Origin: Vibrio sp. FE10
Lineage (GTDB): Bacteria; Pseudomonadota; Gammaproteobacteria; Enterobacterales; Vibrionaceae
Direction of reading: 5' to 3'
Length of the DNA: 64,000 bases
NCBI RefSeq assembly: GCF_030297155.1
Contig: NZ_AP028067.1
Location: 3,224,001-3,288,000, forward strand
Below are positions 3,638 through 52,827 of the stretch, one piece after another (position 1 is the first letter of the stretch; every line of letters starts with the position of its first letter). Position numbers and translations under genes: made by a program. The notes below the pieces were generated by a model. It was not told the DNA's origin. It searched no databases and saw only the letters and a list, made by a program, of their open reading frames with translations.

Positions 3638-3826
3638 GCGAGTAGCGAGTAGCGAGTAGCGAGTAGCGAGTAGCGAGTAGCGAGTAGCGAGTAGCGAGTA
3701 GCGAGTAGCGAGTAGCGAGTAGCGAGTAGCGAGTAGCGAGTAGCGAGTAGCGAGTAGCGAGTAGCGAGTAGCGAGTAGCGAGTAGCGAGTAGCGAGTAGC
3801 GAGTAGCGAGTAGCGAGTAGCGAGTA
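3638..3826 (+). repeat. Perfect heptamer tandem array, 27 copies of GCGAGTA
   Basis: The 189 bases are 27 uninterrupted copies of GCGAGTA with no substitution, starting at the base after the yacG stop codon. Because seven is not a multiple of three, the plus strand has a TAG in every frame every 21 bases, whereas the minus strand is open in all three frames and would read a repeated Tyr-Ser-Leu-Leu-Ala-Thr-Arg. No start codon lies inside it. The perfect copies suggest recent expansion by slippage, and copy number probably differs between strains. Confidence 0.99.
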
Positions 3827-3833
3827 AATTTTG

Positions 3834-3864
3834 AAGGGTTGACGTTTTACGTCAATCCTTTTTT
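3834..3864 (+). terminator. Rho-independent terminator after yacG and the heptamer array
   Basis: GGGTTGACG and CGTCAATCC form a nine-base-pair stem (one G-T pair) with a short loop, followed by TTTTTT on the plus strand. It lies eight bases beyond the last heptamer, so the array would be part of the transcribed 3' region of the pil-coaE-zapD-yacG transcript. Confidence 0.85.
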
Positions 3865-3889
3865 ATTGCCGGTAATAGGTTATTGGTAG

Positions 3890-3929
3890 AGATTCCCTAC
3901 TCCTTCCTTCGTCAGTCTAGGGAATGACG
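3890..3929. repeat. Dispersed repeat, right-arm copy (AGATTCCC...GGGAATGACG)
   Basis: This 40-base unit begins AGATTCCCTA and ends TAGGGAATGACG. The same unit occurs at 41100-41139 and, diverged, at 45333-45373. It is related as an inverse copy to units that begin CGTCATTCCC or CGTCATCCTC and end GGGAATCT or GGGGATCT. It lies in the 514-base gene-free region between yacG and rplS, which also holds the heptamer array, two terminators and a second copy at 4030-4069. Confidence 0.85.
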
Positions 3930-4029
3930 GTTTTTGTAGGCTATTAAGTTCTATTTATCACTGCCGCCTTAAACGCAGCCCACTTCCAATAAATACCATC
4001 ACCCGACTACGTGATTCCAGTTATCTATT

Positions 4030-4069
4030 CGTCATCCTCAAGAGCGAGGCGCAAGCGGGTTGGGGATCT
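4030..4069. repeat. Dispersed repeat, left-arm copy (CGTCATCCTC...GGGGATCT)
   Basis: This unit begins CGTCATCCTCAAGAGCGA and ends GGTTGGGGATCT. It nearly matches the left half of the composite element at 45279-45373 and is about 100 bases from the right-arm copy at 3890-3929. Here the arms are in the opposite order to the composites at 41.0 and 45.3 kb. Confidence 0.85.
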
Positions 4070-4100
4070 CTTATCTACGATAACTCTAAATAGCAGGCAC

Positions 4101-4133
4101 AAAAAAGCGGAGCCAAATGGCTCCGCTTTTATC
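4101..4133 (-). terminator. Terminator of the rpsP-rimM-trmD-rplS operon
   Basis: On the minus strand AAGCGGAGCC and GGCTCCGCTT form a ten-base-pair stem with a short ATTT-type loop followed by a run of T residues. It lies about 20 bases beyond the rplS stop codon. Confidence 0.9.
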
Positions 4134-4151
4134 GATAGAATGCAAAAAGAA

Positions 4152-4505
4152 TTACTTCTTAGTAAGCTTCTCTTTAATACGAGCTGACTTACCAGAACGC
4201 TCACGTAGGTAGTACAACTTGGCACGACGTACTGCACCACGGCGTTTAACTTCGATGCTATCAACCATTGGAGAGTGAGTTTGGAACGCACGCTCTACAC
4301 CTTCACCGTTCGAAATCTTACGAACTGTGAATGCAGAGTGAAGACCACGGTTACGAATAGCGATTACAACGCCTTCGAAAGCCTGTAGACGCTCACGGTC
4401 ACCTTCTTTTACCTTAACCTTAACTACAACAGTGTCACCTGGTGCGAATTTAGGAAGGTCTGATTTTAGTTGCTCTTCTTCAAGAGCCTTGATGATGTTG
4501 CTCAT
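4152..4505 (-). CDS. rplS: 50S ribosomal protein L19
   Basis: L19 sits at the 30S-50S interface of the ribosome. The 117 residues agree with the family's usual length, with the conserved [23 protein letters not shown] stretch split across the SH3-like fold and the basic C-terminus containing [18 protein letters not shown]. It is the last gene of rpsP-rimM-trmD-rplS, 59 bases after trmD, and a strong terminator follows at 4101-4133. Identification is certain. Confidence 0.98.
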
Positions 4506-4564
4506 TTGTATAAATTCCTAGAATAAACTGATACTAAATTTAATAGGTTACTGCTTGCTTTTCG

Positions 4565-5305
4565 TTAAGAGCGTTGCTCTTTAATGAATTCAGCCAGTAA
4601 TTGTTCCTGTTCGTCAGTCAGAGCTAGGTTTTCCAGGAGTTCTGGTCTTCTTAGCCAAGTTCGGCCCAACGATTGTTTCAATCGCCAGCGACGAATGTCC
4701 TTATGGTTTCCAGACTTGAGTACCGAGGGCACATCTTTATCGTCTAGCACCTCAGGGCGCGTATAATGGGGACAATCTAGCAAACCATTTGCAAAAGAAT
4801 CTTCTTCTGCTGAAGCGAAATCTCCAAGTACACCCGGAACAAACCGAGATACTGAATCAATCAACGTCATGGCTGGCAGTTCACCACCCGTCATCACAAA
4901 ATCTCCAATCGACCATTCTTCGTCGACTTCAGATTGAATGATGCGCTCATCTACCCCTTCATAGCGACCACAAATAAGAAGCAAGTTCTCGTTCGTTGCC
5001 AGCTCTTCAACACCTTGTTGGTCGAGTTTACGACCTTGAGGTGAAAGGTAGATAACCTTCGTCTTTCCCGGTGCTGCCTGTTTGGCTGTTTGGATAGCGT
5101 CGCGCAAAGGCTGAACCATCATTAACATGCCAGGACCACCACCGTAAGGTCTGTCATCAACAGTGCGATGTTTATCATGAGTGAAATCACGAGGATTCCA
5201 TGTCTCAATAGATAAAAGACCTTTTTTAACCGCTTGACCTGTTACTCCGAAATCAGTAACAGAACGGAACATTTCAGGAAACAGGCTAATTACGCCAACC
5301 CACAT
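4565..5305 (-). CDS. trmD: tRNA (guanine-37-N1)-methyltransferase TrmD
   Basis: TrmD methylates N1 of G37 next to the anticodon and prevents +1 frameshifting. It is a SPOUT-family homodimer using S-adenosylmethionine. The 246 residues cover the family: [11 protein letters not shown] at the N-terminus, [11 protein letters not shown], the trefoil-knot elements YLSPQGR and [14 protein letters not shown], and [13 protein letters not shown]. It lies 26 bases after rimM and 59 before rplS in the standard ribosomal operon. Confidence 0.98.
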
Positions 5306-5331
5306 GTGTTCTCTCGCTCTGTAATTTGGAG

Positions 5332-5886
5332 TTAGAATCCAGGATCCCAGTCAACTTCGATCCGGCGAGCTTCGCGATCAACTTTCTTGATCACTTGCTC
5401 TTCAAGGTACGGGATTAACCGTTCCTTTTGGCCAAAAGCATCTTTAAGATTTGCTTTGATTACTAGAACATCGTTCGAGCCAGTTTCTAATAGGTCAGTA
5501 ACCTCACCAAGGTTGTAACCTTTAGTGGTAAAAACTTGCATACCGAACAATTCGCGCCAGTAGAATTCATCTTCTGACAATTCAGGTAATGAAGCAGGGT
5601 CAATAGCAATTTCAAAGTTGGTCATCAGTTGCGCGTCTTCACGTACATCTAATCCCGCTAGCTTACATACATAGCCTTGGCCATGACGTTTCCAGCTTTC
5701 AACTTTATACTCAACCCACTCGCCCTTTAGCTTTAAATACCAAGGACTGTAATCAAATATGCTTTCAGCATTGTCTGTGTAGGAGAACACTTTAAGCCAG
5801 CCACGAATACCATAGGTAGACCCAAGTTTACCCATAACAATTCTTTCGTTTTGCTCGCTCATCGTTTCTTTACCCTTCATCGACAT
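5332..5886 (-). CDS. rimM: Ribosome maturation factor RimM
   Basis: RimM binds ribosomal protein S19 and assists assembly of the 30S head. The protein carries the N-terminal RimM barrel ([20 protein letters not shown]) and the C-terminal PRC barrel ([22 protein letters not shown]). Two starts are plausible: ATG 5886 gives 184 residues, and ATG 5862 gives 176 and has a better ribosome site (AAGGG about ten bases upstream). The longer form is listed because Vibrio homologues are usually annotated with the [10 protein letters not shown] leader. Second gene of the operon. Confidence 0.95.
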
Positions 5887-5912
5887 AAGCTATTTCTCTT
5901 TTTAAAAAAGAA

Positions 5913-6161
5913 TTAAGCCGCTTTTTGAGCGTCTTTAACTAGCTTAGCTACGCGGTCAGATAGAGATGCGCCTTGACCAACCCAGTGGTTAACACGATCT
6001 AGGTCTAGACGTAGACCTTCTTCTTGACCTTGAGCAGTAGGGTTAAAGAAACCTACTTTCTCGATGAAACGGCCAGTTACAGAGTTACGGCTATCCGCAA
6101 CTACGATTTGATAAAATGGGCGCTTCTTTGCACCGTGACGTGCCAAACGAATGGTTACCAT
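5913..6161 (-). CDS. rpsP: 30S ribosomal protein S16
   Basis: S16 is an early-binding 30S assembly protein. The 82 residues start [20 protein letters not shown], the family signature, and include [17 protein letters not shown] good ribosome site, AGAGGA, precedes the ATG. It is the first gene of rpsP-rimM-trmD-rplS; a likely promoter lies at 6248-6275 and a leader hairpin at 6196-6222. Confidence 0.98.
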
Positions 6162-6195
6162 GTCGTCCTCTTTGCTTTCTTAATAAAATAATTAA

Positions 6196-6222
6196 CCCCA
6201 AGTATAAGTAAATAGCTTGGGG
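6196..6222 (-). other. Leader hairpin upstream of rpsP
   Basis: CCCCAAG and CTTGGGG form a perfect seven-base-pair stem with a 13-base loop, followed on the minus strand by an A/T-rich run (TTAATTATTTTATTA) before the rpsP ribosome site. It may be a weak terminator for ffh read-through or a leader control element for the ribosomal operon. The sequence alone does not choose between them. Confidence 0.5.
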
Positions 6223-6247
6223 TCTCGTGCCAAATTAAAGCCCCGGA

Positions 6248-6275
6248 ATTTTACTCTTATTCCGGTGCAATGCAA
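6248..6275 (-). promoter_or_regulatory. Candidate sigma-70 promoter of the rpsP operon
   Basis: On the minus strand TTGCAT (-35, 6270-6275) and TAAAAT (-10, 6248-6253) are separated by 16 bases. Transcription would start near 6241, about 80 bases before rpsP, placing the hairpin at 6196-6222 in the leader. This is a pattern match only. Confidence 0.55.
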
Positions 6276-6373
6276 GGGCTTTAGCTATTTTTTCACCAAC
6301 ATAGCCACCGTACACTTTCTGTGACACGGCTAACACTATGAAAAGTAACGTAGCTAAAGCTTACATTTGTAGA

Positions 6374-7768
6374 TTATCGGCCAAACGGGTTAAAACCACC
6401 ACCCATTCCGCCCATACCTCCACCGCCGCCCATCATGCCCTGCATGTTGCGCATCATGCCTTTCATTCCACCCTTCTGCATTTTCTTCATCATCTTCTGC
6501 ATTTGAGTGAACTGTTTCAGCATACGGTTTACATCTTGTACTTGAGTGCCAGAACCTGCAGCAATACGCTTCTTGCGTGAGCCTTTGATTAGGTCAGGAC
6601 GTTGGCGCTCTTTCATTGTCATAGAGTTGATGATCGCTTCCATTTGCTTGAACATCTTATCATCAACTTTATCTTTTACGTTGTCCGGCAGCTGAGACAT
6701 GCCTGGAAGCTTATCCATCATGCCCATCATGCCGCCCATGTTCTGCATTTGTCCTAGCTGTTCACGGAAGTCTTCAAGGTCAAAGCCTTTCTTCTCTTTG
6801 AACTTCTTAGCCAGTTTCTCTGCTTTCTCGGTATCAACGTTTTTCTGTAGGTCTTCAATAAGAGACAGTACGTCGCCCATACCAAGGATACGAGAAGCAA
6901 CACGATCTGGGTGGAACGGTTCTAGTGCGTCAGTTTTTTCACCAACACCCAAGAATTTAATCGGTTTACCTGTGATATGACGAACAGATAGTGCAGCACC
7001 ACCACGCGCATCACCATCCACTTTCGTTAAGATAACACCAGTAAGTGGTAGCGTATCGCCAAAGGCTTTTGCAGTATTCGCAGCATCTTGACCTGTCATT
7101 GCATCAACAACGAACAGTGTCTCTACTGGGTTAATTGCAGTATGAAGCTCTTTGATCTCGCCCATCATCTCTTCATCGATAGCCAAACGACCGGCAGTAT
7201 CGACAATGAGTACGTCGTAGAATTTCTTCTTCGCGTGGTCGATTGCAGCGTTTGCAATATCAAGAGGCTTTTGATCAGCTGAAGATGGGAAGAAGTCGAC
7301 ACCAACATCGCTTGCTAAGGTTTCAAGCTGTTTGATCGCCGCTGGACGGTAAACGTCGGCAGACACAACCAAAACTTTCTTCTTGTCACGTTCAGTCAGG
7401 AGCTTAGATAGCTTACCTACCGATGTGGTTTTACCCGCACCTTGTAGACCCGCCATTAAGATAACTGCTGGCGGTTGTGCAGCTAGGTCAAGAGCCTCGT
7501 TGGACTCGCCCATCACAGCTTCAAGTTCAGCTTGAACGATCTTAATGAATTCTTGGCCAGGTGTTAGAGATTTAGATACCTCAACACCCACAGCGCCTTC
7601 TTTTACGCGCTTAACAAAATCACGGACAACTGGCAGTGCAACGTCGGCTTCAAGTAGCGCCATACGTACTTCACGCAGCGTCTCTTTAATATTGTCTTCG
7701 GTCAGGCGACCTTTACCGCTGATATTCTTCAGCGTTTTGGATAGACGATCCGTTAAATTATCAAACAT
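6374..7768 (-). CDS. ffh: Signal recognition particle protein Ffh
   Basis: Ffh binds 4.5S RNA and signal sequences emerging from the ribosome and delivers the complex to FtsY. The N domain is followed by the G domain with GLQGAGKTT, DTAGR and TKVDGDARGG, and then the methionine-rich M domain, which ends in a run of Met/Gly-rich repeats and NPFGR. I place the start at ATG 7768 (MFDNLTDRLSK, 464 residues) as in E. coli. An in-frame TTG at 7786 would add six residues with no well-placed ribosome site. It is divergent from ypjD and upstream of rpsP on the same strand. Confidence 0.97.
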   Translation of the reverse strand: MFDNLTDRLSKTLKNISGKGRLTEDNIKETLREVRMALLEADVALPVVRDFVKRVKEGAVGVEVSKSLTPGQEFIKIVQAELEAVMGESNEALDLAAQPPAVILMAGLQGAGKTTSVGKLSKLLTERDKKKVLVVSADVYRPAAIKQLETLASDVGVDFFPSSADQKPLDIANAAIDHAKKKFYDVLIVDTAGRLAIDEEMMGEIKELHTAINPVETLFVVDAMTGQDAANTAKAFGDTLPLTGVILTKVDGDARGGAALSVRHITGKPIKFLGVGEKTDALEPFHPDRVASRILGMGDVLSLIEDLQKNVDTEKAEKLAKKFKEKKGFDLEDFREQLGQMQNMGGMMGMMDKLPGMSQLPDNVKDKVDDKMFKQMEAIINSMTMKERQRPDLIKGSRKKRIAAGSGTQVQDVNRMLKQFTQMQKMMKKMQKGGMKGMMRNMQGMMGGGGGMGGMGGGFNPFGR

Positions 7769-7959
7769 AGTTTTCTCTTCGCTCAATCCTGCGACTATTA
7801 CTGTGAGTATACATTAGCGTGGATTAGAGTCATACCCGTTGTAGAGCGTTAATCATCCACGCTTGTGATGTGAGACATTGTTCCCTTGGAATTGAGTGAG
7901 GTTCACCATAGCCCCAAAGAGCGATGCAAGGTATAATTCGTCAATTAGTAATCATTTAA

Positions 7960-8763
7960 ATGGATACCATGGACAGTCTTATTGCGATCGCAGCAGCCTT
8001 TCTTTATACAATGGCGATTTCCACGATCATTCCAGGTCTCGTGCACCAAACAGGAATCCGTGTAAAAACGGTGTTTATCAGCGCATTACTTGCTTTAGCT
8101 TTCCATGCTTGGTTGCTTGGCGATTTAATCTTTAATGCCAGTGGCCAAAACCTCAGTATCTTGAACGTTGCTTCATTGATCAGTTTAATCATCTCTTTGG
8201 TGATGAGCGGTGCTATGCTCAAAACCCGATTGTGGTTCATCTTGCCCGTCGTTTATAGCTTCGCTGCGCTTAACTTGATGGCTGCCACTTTTCTTCCGAG
8301 CACCTTCATCAAACATCTAGAGAATGACCCAAAACTGCTTGTGCACATCTCTTTGGCGCTCTTCTCATACGCGACACTGACTATCGGCGCGCTATATGCT
8401 CTGCAACTCGCGTGGCTCGATCACAAACTTAAAAAGAAAAAAGCGTTAGTAATAAACCCTAACCTACCTCCATTAATGATGGTGGAAAGACAACTTTTCA
8501 AGATCATTCTTATCGGTAATGGTTTATTAACGGGTACCTTGCTGACTGGCCTTATCTTCGTACAAGATATGTTTGCTCAAGGAAAGGCGCACAAAGCCGT
8601 GTTGTCTTTTATTGCTTGGGTTATCTACTCCATCCTTCTTTGGGGTCATTATCAAAAAGGTTGGCGTGGACAAAAAGTCACTTGGTTCGCCCTTGCGGGT
8701 GCCAGTATGCTCACATTAGCCTACTTCGGTAGCCGCTTCGTTCAGGAAATCATCCTGAATTAG
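7960..8763 (+). CDS. ypjD: Inner membrane protein YpjD (cytochrome c assembly-like)
   Basis: The protein is hydrophobic, with about eight membrane segments, and matches E. coli YpjD throughout (PGLVHQTGIR, NLSILNVASLISL, LLVHISLALFSYATLTIGALYALQLAW, AYFGSRFVQ). The family shares the cytochrome c assembly (CcmC/CcsA-like) fold and holds conserved histidines, but its exact function is not settled. It is divergent from ffh and followed by corB, an arrangement conserved in gammaproteobacteria. A second in-frame ATG at 7969 could also be used. Confidence 0.92.
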   Translation: MDTMDSLIAIAAAFLYTMAISTIIPGLVHQTGIRVKTVFISALLALAFHAWLLGDLIFNASGQNLSILNVASLISLIISLVMSGAMLKTRLWFILPVVYSFAALNLMAATFLPSTFIKHLENDPKLLVHISLALFSYATLTIGALYALQLAWLDHKLKKKKALVINPNLPPLMMVERQLFKIILIGNGLLTGTLLTGLIFVQDMFAQGKAHKAVLSFIAWVIYSILLWGHYQKGWRGQKVTWFALAGASMLTLAYFGSRFVQEIILN

Positions 8764-8773
8764 TCTGTAAAAT

Positions 8774-8802
8774 AAAGGCAAGGTCTCACACACCTTGCCT
8801 TT
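8774..8802 (+). terminator. Terminator between ypjD and corB
   Basis: AAAGGCAAGG and CCTTGCCTTT form a perfect ten-base-pair stem with a nine-base loop, starting ten bases after the ypjD stop. The T run after the stem is short (TTAAAA), so it may be leaky. Confidence 0.75.
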
Positions 8803-8890
8803 AAAATATTGAGTCCGTTAGATTCAATTGACATCTCGACCATGTTCGGTCATAAATTAATCAAGATACACAAATAGGAAAAGAATAGTT

Positions 8891-10162
8891 TTGGACGACA
8901 TATCAACGGGTATCTTATTTGCGCTACTCGCGTGTCTCATCGTAATTTCTGGTTATTTCTCTGGTTCTGAAACGGGCATGATGTCCCTGAACCGCTACCG
9001 TTTAAAGCACTTAGCCAGTACGGGCCATAAAGGTGCCAAACGCGTAGAAAAACTTCTGAGTCGCCCAGACAGATTGATCGGCCTCATTCTCATCGGCAAC
9101 AATCTCGTCAACATTCTTGCATCTGCGATCGCTACGATTCTTGGTATGCGTATCTATGGGGATATCGGCGTTGCAATCGCAACCGGAGCCCTGACCCTAG
9201 TGATCCTCGTATTTGCTGAGGTTACTCCAAAAACCATCGCCTCACTTTTCCCAGAACGAGTGTCTTACGCCAGCAGTATTCTATTAATGATACTGATGAA
9301 GGTGCTGTCTCCACTGGTTATCTTGGTTAACTTTATTACTAACGGCTTCATTCGTATCCTAGGTGTCAAAGCCAGCCATGATGCGACCGACCACTTGAGC
9401 TCAGAAGAGCTTAGAACCGTAGTAAATGAAGCGGGAACCCTGATACCTCAGCGTCACCAAGATATGTTGGTGTCTATTCTAGATTTAGAGCACGTCACCG
9501 TGAATGACATCATGGTGCCGCGTAATGAGATCACCGGCATCGACATCAATGATGACTGGAAGTCTATCGTCCGTCAGCTAACCCACTCTCCTCATGGTCG
9601 TGTCGTGCTATACCGCGATCAGATAGATGAAGTGGTTGGTATGTTGAGGCTGCGTGAAGCTTATCGCTTGATGCTTGAAAAGAACGAGTTCAATAAAGAG
9701 ACACTGCTGCGTGCCGCAGATGAAATCTACTTTATTCCTGAAGCGACGCCACTCAATATTCAACTGCTTAAATTCCAACGCAACAAACAGCGTATTGGCT
9801 TGATCGTCGATGAGTATGGCGATATCAACGGCTTGGTCACGCTAGAAGATATTCTTGAAGAGATCGTGGGCGAATTTACGACTTCTATTGCACCGAGCTT
9901 ATCTGAAGAGATCACACCACAAAGTGATGGTAGCTTCTTGATTGAAGGCAGCGCCAATATCCGAGATATTAACAAAGGCTTGCAGTGGAAATTGCCAACT
10001 GACGGCCCAAGAACACTCAATGGCCTGATATTAGAACATCTAGAAGATATCCCAGAAAGTCACCTCAGTGTTGAGGTTGCCAGCCACCCGATGGAAATCG
10101 TTGAACTCGAAGAGAACCGCATCAAACTAGTGCGCGTGTTTCCACAGGTAGCCAACGGGTAA
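8891..10162 (+). CDS. corB: CorB/YfjD-type CNNM membrane protein with CBS domains
   Basis: This family (DUF21/CNNM, CorB in Salmonella) is implicated in magnesium/cobalt export. The protein has three to four N-terminal membrane segments with the DUF21 motif SGSETGMMSLNRYRLKHL, a CBS pair (MVPRNEITGIDIND... and VDEYGDINGLVTLEDILEEIVGEF), and a C-terminal CorC/HlyC domain (SANIRDINKGLQWKLP). Length, 423 residues, is typical. The start is TTG, supported by an AGGAAAAG ribosome site and by conservation of the N-terminus. Neighbours ypjD and ffh are the usual ones. Older hemolysin annotations for this family are misleading. Confidence 0.93.
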   Translation: MDDISTGILFALLACLIVISGYFSGSETGMMSLNRYRLKHLASTGHKGAKRVEKLLSRPDRLIGLILIGNNLVNILASAIATILGMRIYGDIGVAIATGALTLVILVFAEVTPKTIASLFPERVSYASSILLMILMKVLSPLVILVNFITNGFIRILGVKASHDATDHLSSEELRTVVNEAGTLIPQRHQDMLVSILDLEHVTVNDIMVPRNEITGIDINDDWKSIVRQLTHSPHGRVVLYRDQIDEVVGMLRLREAYRLMLEKNEFNKETLLRAADEIYFIPEATPLNIQLLKFQRNKQRIGLIVDEYGDINGLVTLEDILEEIVGEFTTSIAPSLSEEITPQSDGSFLIEGSANIRDINKGLQWKLPTDGPRTLNGLILEHLEDIPESHLSVEVASHPMEIVELEENRIKLVRVFPQVANG

Positions 10163-10181
10163 TCGCGACTCGACGAAAAAC

Positions 10182-10212
10182 AAAAGGCCCGGTTCATTGA
10201 ACCGGGCCTTTT
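10182..10212. terminator. Bidirectional terminator between corB and luxS
   Basis: AAAAGGCCCGGTTC and GAACCGGGCCTTTT form a perfect 14-base-pair stem with a three-base loop. It has T residues after the stem on both strands, so it can end corB and the convergent luxS transcript. Confidence 0.93.
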
Positions 10213-10239
10213 AGTATCTAACTCTTTTAGTATCTAGCT

Positions 10240-10279
10240 CGCTCTGCCTCTAGAGTGAAATGTATCTAGAGGCAGAGCG
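10240..10279. repeat. 15-base-pair perfect inverted repeat downstream of luxS
   Basis: CGCTCTGCCTCTAGA and its exact complement are separated by ten bases. No T run follows on the minus strand, so this is not an ordinary terminator. It would form a stable hairpin in the luxS mRNA 3' region just before the terminator at 10182-10212. Confidence 0.9.
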
Positions 10280-10302
10280 TATTCAAAGTGAACTAACAAT
10301 GA

Positions 10303-10821: not shown

Positions 10822-10845
10822 TGCTATTCTCCATGACGGTTGGCT

Positions 10846-11496: not shown

Positions 11497-11506
11497 CGAA
11501 GTCTCG

Positions 11507-21223: not shown

Positions 21224-21300
21224 TGGTGCGCCCTGGAGGATTCGAACCTCCGACCGCCTGGTTCGTAGCCAGGTACTCTATCCAGCTGAGCTAAGGGCGC
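21224..21300 (-). tRNA. tRNA-Arg (anticodon ACG)
   Basis: Minus-strand cloverleaf of 77 bases: acceptor GCGCCCT pairs with AGGGCGC followed by encoded CCA; D arm AGCTCAGCTGGATAGAGT; anticodon loop CTACGAA; T arm with GTTCGAATC. The A34 of ACG is normally deaminated to inosine to read CGN codons. Last gene of the operon; five further identical genes lie upstream. The arrangement matches the E. coli serV-argVYZQ locus beside csrA. Confidence 0.98.
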
Positions 21301-21371
21301 AACGGTTTCGATATTGAGCATAAAGTTAAAACTAAACATTCAACATCAGGATTAATAAAAACCCTAAATAG

Positions 21372-21448
21372 TGGTGCGCCCTGGAGGATTCGAACCTCCG
21401 ACCGCCTGGTTCGTAGCCAGGTACTCTATCCAGCTGAGCTAAGGGCGC
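21372..21448 (-). tRNA. tRNA-Arg (anticodon ACG)
   Basis: Identical in sequence to the gene at 21224-21300, including encoded CCA. It is separated from that gene by a 71-base spacer nearly identical to the other spacers. Confidence 0.98.
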
Positions 21449-21532
21449 AACGGTTTCGATATTGAGCATAAAGCTAAGACAATAAAGCCAAACTAAACAT
21501 TCAACATCAGGATTAATGAAAACCCTAAATAG

Positions 21533-21609
21533 TGGTGCGCCCTGGAGGATTCGAACCTCCGACCGCCTGGTTCGTAGCCAGGTACTCTATCCAGCTGAGC
21601 TAAGGGCGC
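21533..21609 (-). tRNA. tRNA-Arg (anticodon ACG)
   Basis: Identical copy of the 77-base arginine tRNA with encoded CCA. The 84-base spacer on its 3' side carries a 13-base insertion relative to the 71-base spacer form. Confidence 0.98.
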
Positions 21610-21697
21610 AACGGTTTCGATATTGAACTGTTAGTTAAGGCAATAAAGCAGTTAAAACTAAACATTCAACATCAGGATTAATGAAAACCCTAAATAG

Positions 21698-21774
21698 TGG
21701 TGCGCCCTGGAGGATTCGAACCTCCGACCGCCTGGTTCGTAGCCAGGTACTCTATCCAGCTGAGCTAAGGGCGC
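21698..21774 (-). tRNA. tRNA-Arg (anticodon ACG)
   Basis: Identical copy of the 77-base arginine tRNA with encoded CCA. The spacer on its 3' side is 88 bases, the longest of the four near-identical spacers. Confidence 0.98.
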
Positions 21775-21845
21775 AACGGTTTCGATATTGAGCATAAAGT
21801 TAAAACTAAACATTCAACATCAGGATTAATGAAAACCCTAAATAG

Positions 21846-21922
21846 TGGTGCGCCCTGGAGGATTCGAACCTCCGACCGCCTGGTTCGTAGCCAGGTACTC
21901 TATCCAGCTGAGCTAAGGGCGC
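21846..21922 (-). tRNA. tRNA-Arg (anticodon ACG)
   Basis: Identical copy of the 77-base arginine tRNA with encoded CCA. The spacer upstream of it (21923-22007) is unrelated to the other spacers and separates it from a serine tRNA. Confidence 0.98.
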
Positions 21923-22007
21923 ACGGTATCTTCAAGTGAAGAAGTTGTGAAATATATCACATTCTTGTTTCTACGAAACAAAAAAAAGGCCATAGGCCTG
22001 TAATGAA

Positions 22008-22100
22008 TGGCGGTGAGGGAGGGATTCGAACCCTCGATGCGGCTACAAACCACATACTCCCTTAGCAGGGGAGCGCCTTCGGCCACTCGGCCACCTCACC
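22008..22100 (-). tRNA. tRNA-Ser (anticodon GCU)
   Basis: Minus-strand 93-base tRNA with a long variable arm, as expected for serine. The acceptor GGTGAGG pairs with CCTCACC followed by GCCA; the anticodon loop is CTGCTAA (anticodon GCT), reading AGC/AGU. It sits between two arginine tRNAs. It differs from the other serine copy at one D-region base. Confidence 0.97.
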
Positions 22101-22148
22101 TAATTCATTATTCTTATCCATTACTTCTTAACAAAGTAATCTAAAGAA

Positions 22149-22225
22149 TGGTGCGCCCTGGAGGATTCGAACCTCCGACCGCCTGGTTCGTAGCCAGGTA
22201 CTCTATCCAGCTGAGCTAAGGGCGC
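22149..22225 (-). tRNA. tRNA-Arg (anticodon ACG)
   Basis: Sixth identical 77-base arginine tRNA, lying between the two serine tRNAs. Its flanks differ from the four-unit array, so the Ser-Arg pair may itself have been duplicated. Confidence 0.98.
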
Positions 22226-22271
22226 ACATTGTTACTTCTGTGTTTGCTTGCAAATTCAAACGTGCAAGAAA

Positions 22272-22364
22272 TGGCGGTGAGGGAGGGATTCGAACCCTCG
22301 ATGCGGCTACAAACCACATACTCCCTTAGCAGGGGAGCGCCTTCGGCCTCTCGGCCACCTCACC
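22272..22364 (-). tRNA. tRNA-Ser (anticodon GCU)
   Basis: First gene of the tRNA operon. Same 93-base serine tRNA as at 22008-22100, with GAGAGGCCG in the D arm where the other copy has GAGTGGCCG. A strong promoter lies just upstream at 22380-22407. Confidence 0.97.
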
Positions 22365-27837: not shown

Positions 27838-27889
27838 ATCTAATTCAACAATCTAATTCAATAATCTAATTCAATAATCCAGTTCACTC
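27838..27889. repeat. 13-base tandem repeat, three copies plus a degenerate fourth
   Basis: ATCTAATTCAACA is followed by two copies of ATCTAATTCAATA and then by the diverged ATCCAGTTCACTC. The array lies 15 bases upstream of the TTG start of the unknown membrane protein, in its leader or promoter region. Changes in copy number would alter spacing there. Confidence 0.9.
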
Positions 27890-45268: not shown

Positions 45269-45278
45269 CTATTTTTCC

Positions 45279-45373: not shown

Positions 45374-45510
45374 ACTATCTTTGTTTTACTAAGTAATTGG
45401 TTCTTCTAACAAGGCAACAAACTTACGAGACTTCTGAGCATAGCTTGCCTATGTGATGAAGCGAGTATAGTGCAGTTAACACGGTTAGAAAGCCAAGTAC
45501 GACGTAAAAA

Positions 45511-47736
45511 CTAGCCTAGTCTTTTGACGCTCATTACATCTTTGATTTGTTCTACTCTGCTTGTTACGCGACTCAGAATCTCAATATTGGTCACTTCCAA
45601 ATCGAAATCCATCACTGACAGCTGACGTTTATAGTCAATACGGCTCTTCATTGTCGTCACACTGACTTTTTCGTTCAAGAACAAGGATGTGATGTCTTTC
45701 AACAAGCCGGTACGTTCTAGCGCCTCTACACGCAGCGTTAAGATATACGAGCCTACGAAACCATCGCCCCACACAGTATCGATGATACGTTCGGGAGCAT
45801 GCAGGTTAAGCTCACTCAACTGTTCGCAATCGCTGCGGTGTACTGAGATACCACGCCCTTGAGTAATGTAACCTTTGATCACATCGCCAGGGATAGGCTG
45901 ACAACAACGAGCCAAATGGGTCATTAGGTTATCAACACCTTCAACAACGACGGCATCCTTTTTCGGACGACTTTGATGCGCTGGCTTATTGTCAGATTCA
46001 AGCAACTTCTCGAGCGCTTTCTTATCTTCTTCTTCCGCCGTTGGCTTGTTGACCAAAGCATTGATGTGATTAACGACTTGGTTGATACGTAAATCGCCGC
46101 TACCAATACCCGCATACAATTCATCTGGAGTGTTGACGTTGAATCGTTTCAGCGCGTATTGCTCGGCATCTTTCAGTGTTGCGCCGACTCTGCCTAGCTC
46201 GACTTCTAAGATATCTCGTCCAGCTTCGAGGTTTTTCTCACGACTCTGAGCACGGAACCAAGCGTTAATTTTTGCACGAGCTCGACTTGAATGAACAAAA
46301 CCTGTGGTCGGGTTTAGCCAATCACGTGATGGATTCGGTTCTTTTTGAGTGATGATCTCAACTTGATCACCCATCGCCAACTTATGAGTAAACGGAACGA
46401 TTCGACCTGCCACTTTGGCACCGATACAACGGTGTCCAACCATCGAGTGGATGTGGTAAGCAAAATCCAACGGTGTTGCACCCATTGGTAAATCGACCAC
46501 ATCACCGCGTGGTGTAAAGGCATAGACACGATCATCAAAGACTTGGCTACGTACTTCATCCAGCATTTCGCCAGAATCCGACATCTCTTCTTGCCAGTCG
46601 ATAAGCTTACGCAACCAGGTGATTTTCTCATCGTAGCCACTGCGTACGCCGCTAGATGCACCTTCTTTGTATTTCCAGTGCGCAGCAACGCCCAATTCAG
46701 AATCTTCATGCATCTGCTTGGTTCGAATCTGAATTTCAATGGTCTTGCCTTCAGGGCCAAGAACTACGGTATGAATCGACTGATAACCATTTGGCTTAGG
46801 ATTCGCCACGTAGTCATCAAATTCACTGGGTAGATGTTTGTATTTGGTGTGAACCACACCTAATCCGGCATAACAGTCTTGCAGCTGGTCTGCGATAATA
46901 CGCACCGCACGCACGTCAAAAAGCTCATCAAACTCTAAGCCTTTTTTCTGCATTTTGCGCCAGATACTGTAGATGTGTTTTGGTCGACCGCTGACTTCAG
47001 CATTGATGCTTGAACGGTTCATTTCTGACGTGAGATCGTCAACAAAGTCGGTGATGTATTGTTCGCGCACGATACGTCGCTCAGACAGCTGTTTAGCAAT
47101 CTGCTTATAGGTATCGGGTTGTTGGTAGCGGAAAGCGTAATCTTCAATTTCCCACTTTAGCTGACCAATACCGAGACGGTTTGCAAGAGGCGCATAGATG
47201 TTGGCACACTCTTTTGCTGCCGCACGGCGCACAGCATCAGGGGCCTTTTTTACTTCTATTAGGTTACAAATTCGCTCTGCTAGTTTGATGACTACGCAGC
47301 GGAAATCATCCACCATTGCCAATAGCATTCGTCGAACATTATCGACTTGACCCGAGGCTGCACTGCCTTCAAGGGTCACATTTAGCTGGCCCAAAGCCGC
47401 CATTTCTTCCACGCCATCAATCAGCTTTACGGTCTCCTTTCCGTAACTTTCTTCAAACGCTTCACGCTCAAAAACACCGCTTGATACGACTGGGAAGAGT
47501 TGTGCCGCCACTAAAGTAGCGCGATCCATCGACAAGGTGACCAAGATTTCGATCATCTCGCGACCACGCCAAAGCAAAAGTTCACCTTGCTCGTGATCTT
47601 TTAATAGCTCTTCACAGTGACGATAAACTTTGGTCAGTTTATTCGAGGTTTTTGCGTCTTGATTCAGTGACGCAATCCAATTATCTAGCTCAAACTGTTC
47701 GCTTGGGTTTAAATGTGCGCTTCGTACCGCAACCAT
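45511..47736 (-). CDS. relA: (p)ppGpp synthetase RelA
   Basis: RelA makes pppGpp/ppGpp on ribosomes stalled with uncharged tRNA. The 741-residue protein has a degenerate HD domain (no HD pair where SpoT has one; LIDGVEEMAAL instead), the synthetase domain (FDVRAVRIIADQLQDCYAGLG, KPNGYQSIHTVVLGPEG), a TGS domain (VYAFTPRGDVVDLPMGATPLDF), a zinc-finger-like domain with HLARCCQPIPGD and a C-terminal ACT domain. ATG 47736 fits homologues; ATG 47739 is also possible. It lies downstream of rlmD, as in E. coli. Confidence 0.97.
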   Translation of the reverse strand: MVAVRSAHLNPSEQFELDNWIASLNQDAKTSNKLTKVYRHCEELLKDHEQGELLLWRGREMIEILVTLSMDRATLVAAQLFPVVSSGVFEREAFEESYGKETVKLIDGVEEMAALGQLNVTLEGSAASGQVDNVRRMLLAMVDDFRCVVIKLAERICNLIEVKKAPDAVRRAAAKECANIYAPLANRLGIGQLKWEIEDYAFRYQQPDTYKQIAKQLSERRIVREQYITDFVDDLTSEMNRSSINAEVSGRPKHIYSIWRKMQKKGLEFDELFDVRAVRIIADQLQDCYAGLGVVHTKYKHLPSEFDDYVANPKPNGYQSIHTVVLGPEGKTIEIQIRTKQMHEDSELGVAAHWKYKEGASSGVRSGYDEKITWLRKLIDWQEEMSDSGEMLDEVRSQVFDDRVYAFTPRGDVVDLPMGATPLDFAYHIHSMVGHRCIGAKVAGRIVPFTHKLAMGDQVEIITQKEPNPSRDWLNPTTGFVHSSRARAKINAWFRAQSREKNLEAGRDILEVELGRVGATLKDAEQYALKRFNVNTPDELYAGIGSGDLRINQVVNHINALVNKPTAEEEDKKALEKLLESDNKPAHQSRPKKDAVVVEGVDNLMTHLARCCQPIPGDVIKGYITQGRGISVHRSDCEQLSELNLHAPERIIDTVWGDGFVGSYILTLRVEALERTGLLKDITSLFLNEKVSVTTMKSRIDYKRQLSVMDFDLEVTNIEILSRVTSRVEQIKDVMSVKRLG

Positions 47737-47770
47737 CATGCCTTCCTAGTTATTATGTTTTATACCCAAT

Positions 47771-47813
47771 TCAATATGACTAACTGGTTCCAAGTTAGTT
47801 CGACTCATATTGA
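47771..47813. repeat. Imperfect inverted repeat between relA and rlmD
   Basis: TCAATATGACTAACT and AGTTAG...TCATATTGA pair with a short bulge around GGTTCCA, forming a hairpin of about 15 pairs. It lies upstream of relA in the 136-base gap after rlmD. No T run follows on the minus strand, so a regulatory or repeat origin is as likely as termination. Confidence 0.5.
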
Positions 47814-47872
47814 TATCGGTGCAGGCAGTCCCGCACCTTTGTAATACATTTTTAAGCCTTATTTAAGGACTT

Positions 47873-49192
47873 CTAAGCCTTGATAAAGAGAGCCATCGAT
47901 TCGAGATGACTGGTATGAGGGAACATGTCCAACATGCCTAGCTTAGCCAATTGGTAGCCTTGTTTTTTCAAGCTCTCTGAATCTCTAGCTAGAGTAGCAG
48001 GATTACACGAAACATAAACCACACGCTTCGCTCCTAACCCTGAAATTTGATCAACGATCCCACTCGCTCCTGCACGTGCTGGATCAAGTAAGATTTTATC
48101 AAATCTTTCTTTTGCCCAAGGTTGTGAAGACAGTTCTTCTTCAAGGTTCGCTTGGTAGAATTCTGTATTACTTAATTGATTCAGAGCTGCGTTAGACGTT
48201 GCCTGCTGAACCATTTCATCGACACCTTCAACACCCACCACAAACGCAGATTGTTGTGCGATAGGTAGACTGAAGTTTCCTAAGCCACAAAACAGGTCGA
48301 GCACTCGCTCATCAGCTTGAGGCTCTAACCATTCAATCGCTTGAGCTACCATCTGTTGATTGACCTTTTGATTCACTTGAATGAAGTGGTTTGGTTCAAA
48401 AGGTAACGTTACGCCAGTTTCGTTATAGCTTGGCGTATCACCCACCAAACGAATCAACTTGTCTGTTTCTGGCATAGAATACAGCGTAGCGCCTTCTGCC
48501 TGAGCCAGCTCAATCAAAGATTGCTCATCTTTTTCAACCAAAGGCTTAAGGTGGCGTAGCACCATGACTGGACCAGTATCCCCGATCACTAATTCAACGT
48601 GTCCTAAAGAAGTAAGGTTGCTGAAAGTATTCAGTAAACTTTTCAGCTTTGGCAGCAAGGCATTGAGGCGAGGGTCAAGCACCGCACAATCGGTAATATT
48701 TTCAATCTGCTTGCTTTGCTTTTTACGGAAACCAAACTGAAGTTTCTGTGTTTTCTTATCAACAAACAAGCTGATGCGCGCACGGCGGCGATAACCTGTG
48801 TCATCACCAATAATCGGTTCAACAACGTCTGTTTTATCCGTTTGATATTGGCTCATCAAGTGGTTCAAAGACTGCGCTTTATGTTCTACCTGAGAAGAGT
48901 AGCCAAGGTGCTGGAGATGACAACCACCGCACTGATTAAAATGTTTACAGAAAGGCTTCAAACGCAGTTCGCTTGGCTCCAGTAATTTAATCAGTTTTGC
49001 TCGCGCAAATTTACTCTTACTCTCGATGAGCTGAATTACAACCTGCTCACCCGGCAATGCACCATCAATGAAAACGGGCTTATTTTTCTGATAAGCAATA
49101 CCTGCCCCATTGTGATCCATTCGTTCAACCAAAACCGATTGGTGCTTGGTCTCGAATTGAGTTTTCTTTTTTGATTGAAAAAAACGTGCCAT
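47873..49192 (-). CDS. rlmD: 23S rRNA (uracil-1939-C5)-methyltransferase RlmD
   Basis: RlmD (RumA) methylates U1939 of 23S rRNA. The 439-residue protein has an N-terminal TRAM domain, an iron-sulfur cluster site ([14 protein letters not shown] near residue 80, with another cysteine at about 165), the S-adenosylmethionine motif [16 protein letters not shown] near 295, and the catalytic cysteine in [14 protein letters not shown] near 395. It precedes relA and is divergent from barA, as in E. coli. Confidence 0.95.
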
Positions 49193-49357
49193 TGCTTGTG
49201 CCTAATGTATCTTTTAATAAGTAATTTGTATCCAGGACTCACTATTATGTCTTGGAATCATTGTCGAACGTCACGGCTTTGATTAAGCTTACCGTTCACT
49301 TAACCGCCATTGTGCGCGTTATTTTCCCATATCCAGACCTCGATGTAATTAAAGAAC

Positions 49358-52171
49358 ATGACCAGATATGGCTTAAGAGCCCGTGTAATTACCTTAACTC
49401 TAGCTCCAACCCTAATTATTGGGCTGCTATTGAGTGCATTTTTCTCATTTAACCGCTATCAAGACCTTGAGGGTCAGGTGGTTAACACTGGTACTAGCAT
49501 TATAGAACCGCTTGCGATTGCGAGCGCATCTGGCATGCAACTCGAAAGTCGAGAGTCTGTTCGCCAACTCATCAGCTATGCACATCGAAAAAACTCTAAC
49601 CTTGTGCGCAGTATCGCGGTGTTTGATGAACGCCATGAGTTGTTCGTAACCTCAAACTTCCACCCCGACTTTGAAAGCCTCACTTATCCCAAAGATAAGC
49701 CGATACCGCATTTGAGCTCGTCGAACCTGCTCGATAACACGCTGATTCTCAGGACGCCCATCATCGCTGAGGGGCAATACATCAACTCAGCCAACGGGCA
49801 ATCACAAGCGAACCAAGCGATTGGCTATATCGCGATTGAACTCGACTTATCTTCATTACGATTACAGCAGTATCAAGAGGTGTTCTCTGCTTTCTTGGTG
49901 TTGATTCTGGGACTTGGTTTATCGGGCGTGTTTGCGTTCCGCTTAATGCACGATGTAACTCAACCGATCACGCACATGAAAAACATGGTTGACCGGATTC
50001 GACGAGGTCATCTCGATGTACGTATCGAAGGCAAGATGCATGGTGAGCTAGATTCACTGAAAAACGGTATCAACGCGATGGCGGTATCGCTATCAGAATA
50101 TCACGTCGAGATGCAGCACAGCATCGACCAAGCAACGTCTGATCTGCGTGAAACCCTAGAGCAATTAGAGATTCAAAACGTTGAGTTAGACATTGCGAAA
50201 AAACGCGCTCAAGAAGCAGCTCGTGTTAAGTCTGAGTTCTTGGCTAACATGTCTCACGAATTGAGAACACCGCTCAACGGTGTGATTGGCTTTACTCGTC
50301 AGATGCTTAAAACCCACTTATCGACCAGCCAAACAGACTACTTGCAGACCATTGAGCGCTCTGCCAACAACCTACTAAGCATCATCAACGATATTCTCGA
50401 TTTCTCGAAGTTGGAAGCTGGTAAATTAGCGCTCGAGAACATCCCATTTGAATTCCAAGCCAGCCTTGAAGAGGTTGTGAACCTTCAAGCGACCAATGCT
50501 CATGAGAAAGGCCTAGAGCTGACGCTTAAAATTGATCCGAAAGTGCCACCAGGCGTGGTTGGTGATCCGCTGCGTATTCAACAGATCCTAACCAACCTTG
50601 TTGGTAACTCAATCAAGTTTACCGAACGTGGCAACATTGACATCAGTGTTGAACTTCGTTCTCAGACCGAAGACAACATCGAGCTTCAATTCATGGTTCG
50701 AGACACCGGTATAGGTATCTCGGAGCGTCAACAAGCTCAGCTATTCCAAGCCTTCAGCCAAGCGGATGCGAGTATCTCTCGTCGTTATGGTGGTACCGGC
50801 CTTGGTCTCGTTATCACACAGAAATTGGTAAGCCAGATGGGCGGTGAGATCAGCCTAACCAGTCGCCTGCACCAAGGCTCAACCTTCTGGTTTACTTTAA
50901 GATTATCAACGACTGATATGCCAATGACCGAGCTTATCGAAACTCAATGTCTACAAGACAAACAGTTGTTGTTGATCGAGCCAAACATGCAAGCCGCCTC
51001 GATTACTCAGCAGATCTTGACCCAAGAAGGGCTGGTCGTCACTTACCGTTCGGTGATGCCTGACGAAAGCACCTCTTATGACTACGTATTGCTAAACCTT
51101 GCCGCGAACCAAGAATACCAACTTGATACCGTCAGTGGCTGGGCAATTGGTGCGAAGAAAATTGCTCAGAACGTCATTATTGGTACTCCAAGTACCGAAC
51201 TTGCATTAGGCGAGCAATTGATGAAAGAGGTCGATGTTCAATGCATTACCAAGCCTCTCTCTCGTAAGAAGCTGCTGCAAACTCTGATCTCTAATCAAGC
51301 ACCAACCTTGATTGCTCCAGCGATTGAAACGCACTCAGAAGAGAAACTACCGTTAACAGTACTGGCGGTAGACGATAACCCAGCCAACCTTAAGTTGATT
51401 ACTGCGTTATTGAAAGAGCGTGTGGAAACCGTGATCAGCTGTACTAACGGTCAACAGGCAATCGACAAAGCGACCACCACACCGTTTGATATCATCTTCA
51501 TGGATATCCAAATGCCACAAATGGATGGCGTGACCGCTTGTCAGCACATTAAGAAACTCGCTAACAATGCCAATACACCGATTATCGCGGTAACCGCGCA
51601 CGCCATGACGGGTGAGCGAGATCGATTGCTCGCTGCGGGTATGGATGACTACCTGACCAAGCCTATCGAAGAGCATGTATTACAGCAGGTTCTACTCCAC
51701 TGGAGTCCGGCTTCAGAGGTTGAGCATATCGATAAGATAGACCCTGAACATCCAGCCGTCGCAGTTGAGATCGATAGTAGTCAGCCACAAGAAACAGAAG
51801 CGAACGTGCACAAAAACATCATCATTGATTGGCAAGCCGCAATGAAGCAGGCCGCTAACAAAGAGGATCTTGCACGCGATATGCTGCGAATGTTAGTGGA
51901 CTTTATTCCTGAGGTTTATGAAGCCGCAGAGAAAGCGATAGAAGACAACGACTTCCCAGTTGAAGAACTGATACATATCATCCACAAAATGCACGGCAGC
52001 AGCTCATACAGCGGCGTACCAAGGCTAAAATCGGTATGTGCAACGATAGAGAAAGAGTTGCGCTCAGGCACTTCCATTGAGGCGATTGAGCCAGAGCTGT
52101 TTGAATTGCAGGATGAATTAGACAAGGTTCAGGCAACAGCGATCCATTACTTGCAGCCGATTAACAGTTAA
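49358..52171 (+). CDS. barA: Hybrid sensor histidine kinase VarS/BarA
   Basis: VarS/BarA phosphorylates the response regulator VarA/UvrY, which activates CsrB-type RNAs that sequester CsrA. The 937 residues hold two membrane segments (about 8-30 and 175-195) around a periplasmic sensor, a HAMP domain (196-250), a histidine kinase domain with His300 in MSHELRTPLNG, ATPase motifs (NSIKFTERG, DTGIGI, GGTGLGL), a degenerate receiver-like segment (about 530-650), a receiver domain with Asp716, and a phosphotransfer domain with a histidine near 876. It is divergent from rlmD. The stop codon is followed by a heptamer repeat. Confidence 0.96.
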   Translation: MTRYGLRARVITLTLAPTLIIGLLLSAFFSFNRYQDLEGQVVNTGTSIIEPLAIASASGMQLESRESVRQLISYAHRKNSNLVRSIAVFDERHELFVTSNFHPDFESLTYPKDKPIPHLSSSNLLDNTLILRTPIIAEGQYINSANGQSQANQAIGYIAIELDLSSLRLQQYQEVFSAFLVLILGLGLSGVFAFRLMHDVTQPITHMKNMVDRIRRGHLDVRIEGKMHGELDSLKNGINAMAVSLSEYHVEMQHSIDQATSDLRETLEQLEIQNVELDIAKKRAQEAARVKSEFLANMSHELRTPLNGVIGFTRQMLKTHLSTSQTDYLQTIERSANNLLSIINDILDFSKLEAGKLALENIPFEFQASLEEVVNLQATNAHEKGLELTLKIDPKVPPGVVGDPLRIQQILTNLVGNSIKFTERGNIDISVELRSQTEDNIELQFMVRDTGIGISERQQAQLFQAFSQADASISRRYGGTGLGLVITQKLVSQMGGEISLTSRLHQGSTFWFTLRLSTTDMPMTELIETQCLQDKQLLLIEPNMQAASITQQILTQEGLVVTYRSVMPDESTSYDYVLLNLAANQEYQLDTVSGWAIGAKKIAQNVIIGTPSTELALGEQLMKEVDVQCITKPLSRKKLLQTLISNQAPTLIAPAIETHSEEKLPLTVLAVDDNPANLKLITALLKERVETVISCTNGQQAIDKATTTPFDIIFMDIQMPQMDGVTACQHIKKLANNANTPIIAVTAHAMTGERDRLLAAGMDDYLTKPIEEHVLQQVLLHWSPASEVEHIDKIDPEHPAVAVEIDSSQPQETEANVHKNIIIDWQAAMKQAANKEDLARDMLRMLVDFIPEVYEAAEKAIEDNDFPVEELIHIIHKMHGSSSYSGVPRLKSVCATIEKELRSGTSIEAIEPELFELQDELDKVQATAIHYLQPINS

Positions 52172-52172
52172 A

Positions 52173-52202
52173 AGTTGGCAGTTGGCAGTTGGCAGTTGGC
52201 AG
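52173..52202 (+). repeat. Heptamer tandem repeat, four copies of AGTTGGC
   Basis: Four perfect copies of AGTTGGC plus AG follow the barA stop codon with a single base between. The last barA serine codon, the stop and that base (AGT TAA A) are in phase with the heptamer and share its first four bases, so the array seems to extend from the end of the gene. Confidence 0.95.
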
Positions 52203-52226
52203 GAAACTGTAACGCGTTCAGATAAT

Positions 52227-52259
52227 AAAAAAGCAGAGCCATGAGCTCTGCTTTTTTTT
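52227..52259. terminator. Bidirectional terminator between barA and acpS
   Basis: AAAAAAGCAGAGC and GCTCTGCTTTTTT pair with a five-base loop. T runs are present on both strands, ending barA on the plus strand and the acpS transcript on the minus strand. Confidence 0.92.
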
Positions 52260-52299
52260 ACTGGAATATTTGGTCAGTGTTAATCGATTCGTTCAGTAC

Positions 52300-52343
52300 C
52301 TAAACACATTCGTAACTAAACATGCTCGTAGTCTAAACACATG
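52300..52343. repeat. Imperfect 16-18-base tandem repeat downstream of acpS
   Basis: CTAAACACATTCGTA, CTAAACATGCTCGTAGT and CTAAACACATGGCTC follow one another with small differences. They lie in the short gap between the barA terminator and the acpS stop codon. Origin unknown; it may be a degraded tandem array. Confidence 0.6.
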
Positions 52344-52357
52344 GCTCAATTCAAAGC

Positions 52358-52738
52358 TCACGACTCAAGTAATACCGTCGCCACCGCGTAGTGGCGCTCA
52401 TCGGAAATCGTCAGATGAATCGACTTTGTTCCATTCGCCAATGCGATTTCCTGAGCTTTTTTATGCAAGTTCAAAACTGGCTTGCCATGCTCATCGTTCG
52501 ATATTTCAAAATCGTGAAAGGTAACACCAAGCGCGATACCAGTACCGAGCGCTTTCGATGCCGCTTCTTTAGCCGCAAAACGCTTCGCAAGGTAACGCCC
52601 TTTTTGCTTAAGCTGCTGGAATACTTCAAATTCAGAATCCGTCAAAATACGTTTAGCGAAAGCCTCACCACTTCGTGACAGTGCTCTTTCTACACGTTCT
52701 ATTTCTGCGATATCTGTACCTAATCCAACAACAGCCAT
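52358..52738 (-). CDS. acpS: Holo-[acyl-carrier-protein] synthase
   Basis: AcpS transfers 4'-phosphopantetheine from CoA to acyl carrier protein. The 126 residues contain the magnesium-binding [13 protein letters not shown] at the N-terminus and [17 protein letters not shown] near residue 55, both family signatures. It follows pdxJ by 92 bases, an arrangement conserved with recO and era. Confidence 0.96.
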
Positions 52739-52792
52739 GTTTACCTTACTATCAAACTTCGATTTATTGATTCTATTGGTTTTTGATTAACC

Positions 52793-52827
52793 ACTTAACA
52801 CTTAACACTTAACACTTAACACTTAAC
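52793..52827 (-). repeat. Heptamer tandem repeat, five copies (ACTTAAC on plus; GTTAAGT in gene direction)
   Basis: Five perfect heptamers lie three bases beyond the pdxJ stop codon (TAG at 52831-52833, minus strand). Read in the direction of pdxJ and rotated, the unit is AGTGTTA, so it shares the AGT-NNNN form of the arrays after yacG (AGTAGCG) and barA (AGTTGGC). A degenerate sixth copy follows. Confidence 0.95.

Follow-up and report, generated by a model that had tools for sequence, protein, structure and literature searches.

Tandem heptamer arrays behind stop codons of a Vibrio genome as probable slippage-derived, hypervariable microsatellites

The window analyzed here is a stretch of 64,000 nucleotides from a Vibrio genome of 6.0 Mb in three contigs. 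Its ZapD protein was 100% identical to ZapD of Vibrio lentus 10N.261.46.F8, and this strain was also the sister row of the own genome (support, 96/85) in a tree of the 1.4 kb upstream of the yacG stop. The genes and repeats at the three gene ends of interest were as follows, with coordinates counted within the window:

3440..3637, + strand: yacG (65 amino acids), upstream of the long array; NCBIfam NF001638.0, DNA gyrase inhibitor YacG, 116 bits (cut-off, 83)
3638..3826, + strand: perfect heptamer array GCGAGTA x27 (TRF, 100% matches, and sequence)
3833..3861, + strand: terminator-like hairpin 3' of the yacG array, GAAGGGTTGACG-TTT-ACGTCAATCCTTT, 13 pairs
49358..52171, + strand: barA, sensor kinase gene; NCBIfam NF008318.0, 1424 bits
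52173..52202, + strand: perfect heptamer array AGTTGGC x4.3 (TRF)
52232..52259, + strand: probable terminator hairpin 3' of the barA array, AGCAGAGC-CATGA-GCTCTGCT and then a T run (sequence reading)
52358..52738, - strand: acpS, the next gene past pdxJ; TIGR00516.1, 139 bits
52792..52828, - strand: heptamer array x5.3, CACTTAA on the + strand and TTAAGTG on the - strand (TRF and perfect-array search)
52831..53568, - strand: pdxJ; NF003623.0, 435 bits

The identities of YacG, BarA, PdxJ, and AcpS were confirmed by NCBIfam. The original prediction placed three heptamer arrays directly behind the yacG, barA, and pdxJ stops, and all three were real, with gaps of 0, 1, and 2 bases when read on the sequence. 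Thus, the GCGAGTA array begins 0 bases past the yacG TAA (3635-3637; the TRF call is AGCGAGT x27.1 at 3637-3826), the AGTTGGC array begins 1 base past the barA TAA (52169-52171), and the third array lies 2 bases past the minus-strand stop of pdxJ (52831-52833), where TRF reported a heptamer tract with 97% matches at 52787-52828 and the perfect core, CACTTAA x5.3, occupies 52792-52828. The hairpin scan around the yacG array found one hairpin against a shuffle mean of 0.8, and the barA hairpin was read from the sequence and is absent from the list of the automatic scan. Elsewhere in the window, a minus-strand tRNA cluster at 21224-22364 holds six tRNA-Arg(acg) and two tRNA-Ser(gct) genes, with five consecutive tRNA-Arg genes spaced 148 to 165 bp, and a 13-base unit, ATCTAATTCAATA, stands in tandem at 27838-27879 (3.2 copies, 96% matches).

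Genome-wide counts were made on one hundred 20-kb stretches plus the window, 2.064 Mb in total or about one third of the genome. The stretches were taken every 50 kb on C1 and every 100 kb on C2, which was covered up to 1.82 Mb and at half-steps as far as 450 kb, and C3 was represented by 20 of its 49 kb. Perfect arrays of at least three copies numbered 6, 14, 23, 10, and 4 for periods 5, 6, 7, 8, and 9, respectively; there was one of period 13 and none of periods 10 to 12 or 14 to 18. One order-3 Markov shuffle of the same 2.064 Mb gave 2 arrays of period 5 and none of periods 6 to 9, and with 23 heptamer arrays against 0 in the shuffle, chance does not account for them. Period 7 was also the most numerous at four copies or more (19 arrays), and all 23 heptamer units were distinct with rotations and strands counted. 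Among the 24 TRF period-7 rows of at least three copies, 15 were perfect and 9 were imperfect (68 to 99% matches). The gene model consisted of the longest ORFs of at least 100 amino acids, as opposed to curated annotation, and none of its ORFs contained a heptamer array, while five hexamer and three nonamer arrays lay inside ORFs, as expected from the reading frame. Two hexamer arrays in large ORFs were long: CAGAGC x13.3 at L098:1520-1599 and CTGGCT x11.8 at L116:15581-15651. No array of period 5 to 9 was present in 450 kb of Escherichia coli K-12, although the density in Vibrio predicts 5.0 heptamer arrays for that length. Four heptamer arrays were found in 12 loci (249 kb) of other vibrios, all from the zapD region and thus not a random sample, so that the trait extends beyond the splendidus group. 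At one locus of the own genome (L112:16959-17052), AGCGATC, CCATAAG, and AAATGAG arrays adjoin with one-base joints, and relatives carry other mixtures there, including a pentamer.

The period profile was examined further through runs of matching bases at fixed lags in intergenic DNA. Runs of at least 14 nt at lag 7 occurred 21 times, compared with none in eight simulated intergenic sets. At the other lags, such runs numbered 1 (lag 4), 3 (lag 5), 7 (lag 6), 10 (lag 8), 2 (lag 9), 0 (lags 10 to 12), 3 (lag 13), and 0 (lag 14). Short runs of 5 to 13 nt were slightly over-represented at almost every lag between 6 and 14; lag 7 was about level with lags 12 to 14 and no higher than lag 13 or 14. 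Since the short runs are in excess at most lags while the long runs peak at 7, expansion is period-selective, whereas the initial duplication (nucleation) is not. Only 2 seven-mer arrays were 18 to 20 nt long, and 23 were at least 22 nt long.

Placement relative to genes was calculated for 21 of the 23 heptamer arrays, the other two being near stretch ends without a complete intergenic region. Convergent gaps held 12 of the 21 (3.9 expected) and divergent gaps held 1 (5.1 expected); 19 were nearer a stop than a start (9.8 expected), and 5 were no more than 4 bases from a stop (0.44 expected). With the window excluded, the figures for the remaining 18 arrays were 10 convergent (3.3 expected), 1 divergent (4.5), 16 nearer a stop than a start (8.4), and 3 within 4 bases of a stop (0.39). 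As these values hold without the window, the location at gene 3' ends is true on independent data, in agreement with the original prediction both for the general preference and for the short distance to stops. In codirectional gaps outside the window, the stop-side preference was weak, with 6 of 7 arrays on the stop side versus 5.1 when arrays were placed at random across all gaps (803 of 2,000 replicates as high) and 3.5 when arrays were placed within their own gaps (125 of 2,000). Placement within own gaps also raised the number expected within 4 bases of a stop to 0.86, compared with the 3 of 18 observed (84 of 2,000).

Ordinary indels between the own genome and one relative, G011, served as a control (196 kb of HSPs). 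Indels of up to 6 bp were found at 13.6 to 15.6 per kb in the first 40 bases past stops, against 0 to 6.0 per kb in the 40 bases preceding starts. Outside the window, arrays of period 5 to 9 and indels of at least 7 bp, a class that includes array differences, were alike in their distance to stops: 9/43 arrays and 5/38 indels were within 4 bases, and 19/43 and 17/38, respectively, were within 30 bases. Compared with indels of up to 6 bp, arrays lay within 4 bases of a stop more often (9/43 versus 11/168; P = 0.008), but six of those nine arrays overlap the stop itself, and without them the difference was lost (3/43 versus 8/168; P = 0.40). The convergent share of arrays of period 5 to 9, window included, was 25/46, higher than the 29% predicted from indels of up to 6 bp (P = 0.0003) and the 40% predicted from indels of at least 7 bp (P = 0.03). 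This excess is probably overstated, because the G011 alignments covered only 2,969 of 6,540 convergent bases, and indels may actually be more frequent in these regions. Overall, stop-adjacency of arrays equaled that of indels of at least 7 bp and their convergent share was modestly above it, and raw stop distances, which look decisive without an indel control, lost weight once that control was applied.

Arrays at the same site differed strongly among relatives. The yacG site was compared in 30 distinct rows, own included; L163 and L175 were dropped as duplicates, and L176, whose contig ends 14 bases past the stop, was dropped from the second tree. An array was present in 22 of the 30 rows, and 8 had none of at least three copies. 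Both the unit and the copy number varied: the units were of CGAGATT type (9 rows), CGAGTAG type (6), CGAGTAA (3), CGAATAG (1), CGAGGTT type (1), CACTTAT (1), and an unrelated octamer (1). The copy number ranged from no array to 27 copies, with a lower bound of 4.1 copies for L164, which ends inside its own array. On the tree, these seven unit types plus the empty state required at least 15 unit changes and at least 7 gains or losses (16 unit and 8 presence changes with L176 kept). In most rows, the stop and the terminator hairpin were constant while the tract between them changed; the hairpin was kept in most splendidus-group rows despite the change of array and was lost or cut in L144/L175 and L171. 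The CACTTAT array of L178 was located past the terminator, not between the stop and the terminator. In the sister rows L131 (x27) and L161 (x11), one unit letter differs through all copies. More distant vibrios carried GGTGCTA, CAGCGAA, AACGGCT, TTACGGA, an octamer, or other units near the site, or none.

Near the barA end, the close relative G011 has AGCAGTT x2.9, and no array of period 5 to 12 was seen in the displayed stretch of 11 further relatives in which the end was located. In the acpS-pdxJ gap, 17 of the 18 relatives in which this gap was displayed were without an array, the sole carrier being G011 with an 8-mer, ACTTAACT, x3.6 and a 7-mer, TTACTAG, x3.4. For eight own arrays that could be aligned with their flanks to G011 stretches, copy number, unit, or presence differed in 8/8. 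Three of these had the same unit in another copy number (6.4 versus 8.4, 3.1 versus 5.1, and 4.3 versus 2.6 copies in own and G011, respectively), two had none or a remnant in G011, and the three adjoining arrays of L112 corresponded to other mixtures. TCATTGA x22.7, which ranks second in length among the arrays of the sample, has an empty site as its counterpart in G011. Local seeds were observed at two loci. The row L168 has an 8-mer, CCACTTAA, x6.9, and its sister L141 has a single-copy GCCACTTAG at the same place, which we read as the birth of an array de novo; the likely seed of the TCATTGA array is found in G076 as TCATTGGTCATT, a 5-base repeat at spacing 7.

The original prediction also noted that the three window units, read on the strand of the upstream gene, share AGT followed by four free bases. 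The three units do fit this rotation to the letter, and it would speak for a sequence-specific mechanism, such as a site-specific enzyme or a binding protein, that makes or uses AGT-NNNN arrays. However, AGT/ACT was present in only 4 of the 20 units outside the window, compared with 22.7% of intergenic heptamers, so that the over-representation of AGT named as the check did not appear. Genome-wide, AGTNNNN x5 gave 45 matches, which overlap within long arrays, against 47 for a reversed control, and the most enriched triplet among the units was AGC (9/20; P = 0.0035, uncorrected for the 32 triplet classes). For three intergenic heptamers drawn at random, the probability of having some triplet in common on either strand is 0.26. 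The AGT shared by the three window units is a coincidence, and the chance that an AGT-specific mechanism is at work is close to nil.

A shared origin of the arrays is likely, and in that respect the proposal of one generating mechanism stands. Most probably, and with few reservations on our part, the arrays are hypervariable microsatellites (VNTRs) that come from replication slippage, are period-selective at expansion, and are kept where indels are tolerated. Short direct repeats about 7 bases apart in noncoding DNA would act as seeds, and slipped-strand mispairing in the course of replication would expand them. Units of 5 to 9 bases, with a peak at 7, would grow to about 3 to 8 copies and occasionally to more than 20; fast copy turnover would leave the arrays largely uniform, and arrays would be lost and then arise again from other seeds nearby. 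Loops of 1 to 4 bases would be removed by mismatch repair, which would set a lower bound to unit size. Arrays would persist where insertions do little harm, chiefly in the stretch that separates a stop codon from the terminator or from the next convergent gene, and because they are kept chiefly there, they would look like post-stop repeats of unrelated sequence. The observations behind this reading are non-randomness, the period profile, the location, turnover between relatives, the local seeds at two loci, and the similarity to the indel profile; slippage as the actual step and the cause of the preference for seven are inferred. The convergent excess over indels, the closer stop-adjacency compared with indels of up to 6 bp, the copy numbers, which with only two arrays of 18 to 20 nt do not follow a simple decay from two copies, the imperfect TRF rows (9/24), and the triple array at L112 speak against it.

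The common role at mRNA 3' ends that was proposed along with the shared mechanism is unsupported, since indels against a close relative show a like preference and arrays are gained and lost even among close relatives. In its general form, this role would mean selection for tandem heptamers, whatever their sequence, in the interval from stop to terminator, where they might serve as an unstructured spacer or as a buffer between convergent transcription units. The strong 3'-end and convergent bias, the residual convergent excess over indels, and the presence of an array with a changing unit in 22/30 yacG rows would agree with such selection, but 8/30 of these rows and 17/18 relatives at the acpS-pdxJ gap do without an array, the indel profile is nearly the same, and the units overall did not favor RNA structure (mean permutation fraction, 0.60 over 23 units). 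We therefore consider functional 3'-end elements very unlikely. Equally low is our expectation of a dedicated period-7 expansion activity of the lineage, such as a polymerase or a repair pathway that works in steps of 7 bases and goes further than ordinary slippage. The period selectivity that appears only at expansion, the absence of arrays of period 5 to 9 from 450 kb of E. coli (5.0 heptamers expected), the triple array, and the near absence of 18- to 20-nt intermediates all point toward it; however, periods 6 and 8 expand too, and a heptamer excess in many bacteria, as described in the accessible part of PMC4692102, creates no need for a Vibrio-specific enzyme. It is unlikely, though not extremely so, that Vibrio has a period-selective process by which any short direct repeat with a spacing of about 7 is expanded into an array of 4 to 8 copies in one or a few steps, that this process prefers transcribed 3' ends and convergent gaps beyond indel tolerance, and that it repeatedly furnishes the same sites with arrays of new units. 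Formation of RNA hairpins by the units was rejected on the same mean fraction of 0.60. Four of the 23 units (AGCTAAG, ACTCAGT, AGCTATT, and AGCTAAC) are strongly self-complementary, with about one expected, and fold better than all but 2 to 3% of their letter permutations.

The arrays consist of head-to-tail units beyond chance and vary in copy number between close relatives, and they fall within a known class, that of bacterial VNTRs and over-represented heptamers; their turnover is documented unusually clearly. According to Mrazek et al. (2007), as cited in the accessible part of PMC4692102, heptamer repeats are over-represented in bacteria and slippage was proposed; period 7 was suggested there to be related to the piece of DNA that the active site of the polymerase holds. 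The Vibrio arrays share the period-7 excess and the proposed slippage with those heptamers, but, as far as PMC4692102 alone allows the comparison, they differ in their arbitrary units, in a 3'-end bias set against indels, and in the placement of selectivity at expansion. The G-quadruplex heptamers GGGNATC of Xanthomonas and Nostoc, in the same partial source, are alike in period 7, in often having at least four copies, in lying near stops, in their rarity between divergent genes, and in their variation between close relatives. In contrast, CCC/GGG occurred in 0/23 Vibrio units. TAACTGA heptamers of Beggiatoaceae, Cyanobacteria, and Bacteroidetes are likewise intergenic direct repeats of period 7, but they have one fixed unit that in BOGUAY stands mostly just upstream of starts (PMC4679880, in the part available), whereas the Vibrio arrays have many units and lie mostly downstream of stops. 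TAACTGA was not among the 23 Vibrio units, rotations and strands included, and 19/21 placed arrays, window included, were nearer a stop than a start, unlike the placement in BOGUAY. The VNTRs of Burkholderia pseudomallei are similar in their motifs of mostly 6 to 9 bp, 4 to 10 copies, mostly intergenic location, and hypervariability; however, 36.3% of those arrays are duplicated at least partly elsewhere, mostly as the motif without its flanks (PMC1853098, accessible part), and the 23 Vibrio units are all different. Within the genus, the V. cholerae MLVA locus VC0437 (gacccta; PMC6905556) and the V. parahaemolyticus 6-mer MLVA loci (PMC3265528) are alike in unit sizes of 6 to 9 and copy-number variation, although in the available parts of both sources they are chosen typing loci, unlike the arrays here. 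The V. parahaemolyticus 6-mers showed mostly single-unit changes in serial culture, a precedent that supports the slippage reading (PMC3265528, as far as accessible). Among titles and abstract openings, with subscription literature mostly outside this scope, no publication was found that describes the post-stop heptamer pattern in the splendidus group.

With slippage as the preferred explanation, an apparent code at mRNA 3' ends is replaced by a mutational pattern, and the arrays become a natural system for asking why microsatellites of bacteria are most frequent at period 7. The split between nucleation and expansion, together with one site that carries many units in close relatives, makes this question testable in laboratory strains. 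The arrays also are candidate typing loci for the splendidus group. The yacG unit AGCGAGT was considered as a widespread mobile sequence and rejected, since its 4-copy pattern occurred in 1 of 75 genomes of a class-wide sample, the own genome. The array part of the query matched several further Vibrio genomes away from yacG. In another vibrio (G044), AGCGAGT x15 stands at a different gene, directly past the end of an ORF (L158:1501-1605).
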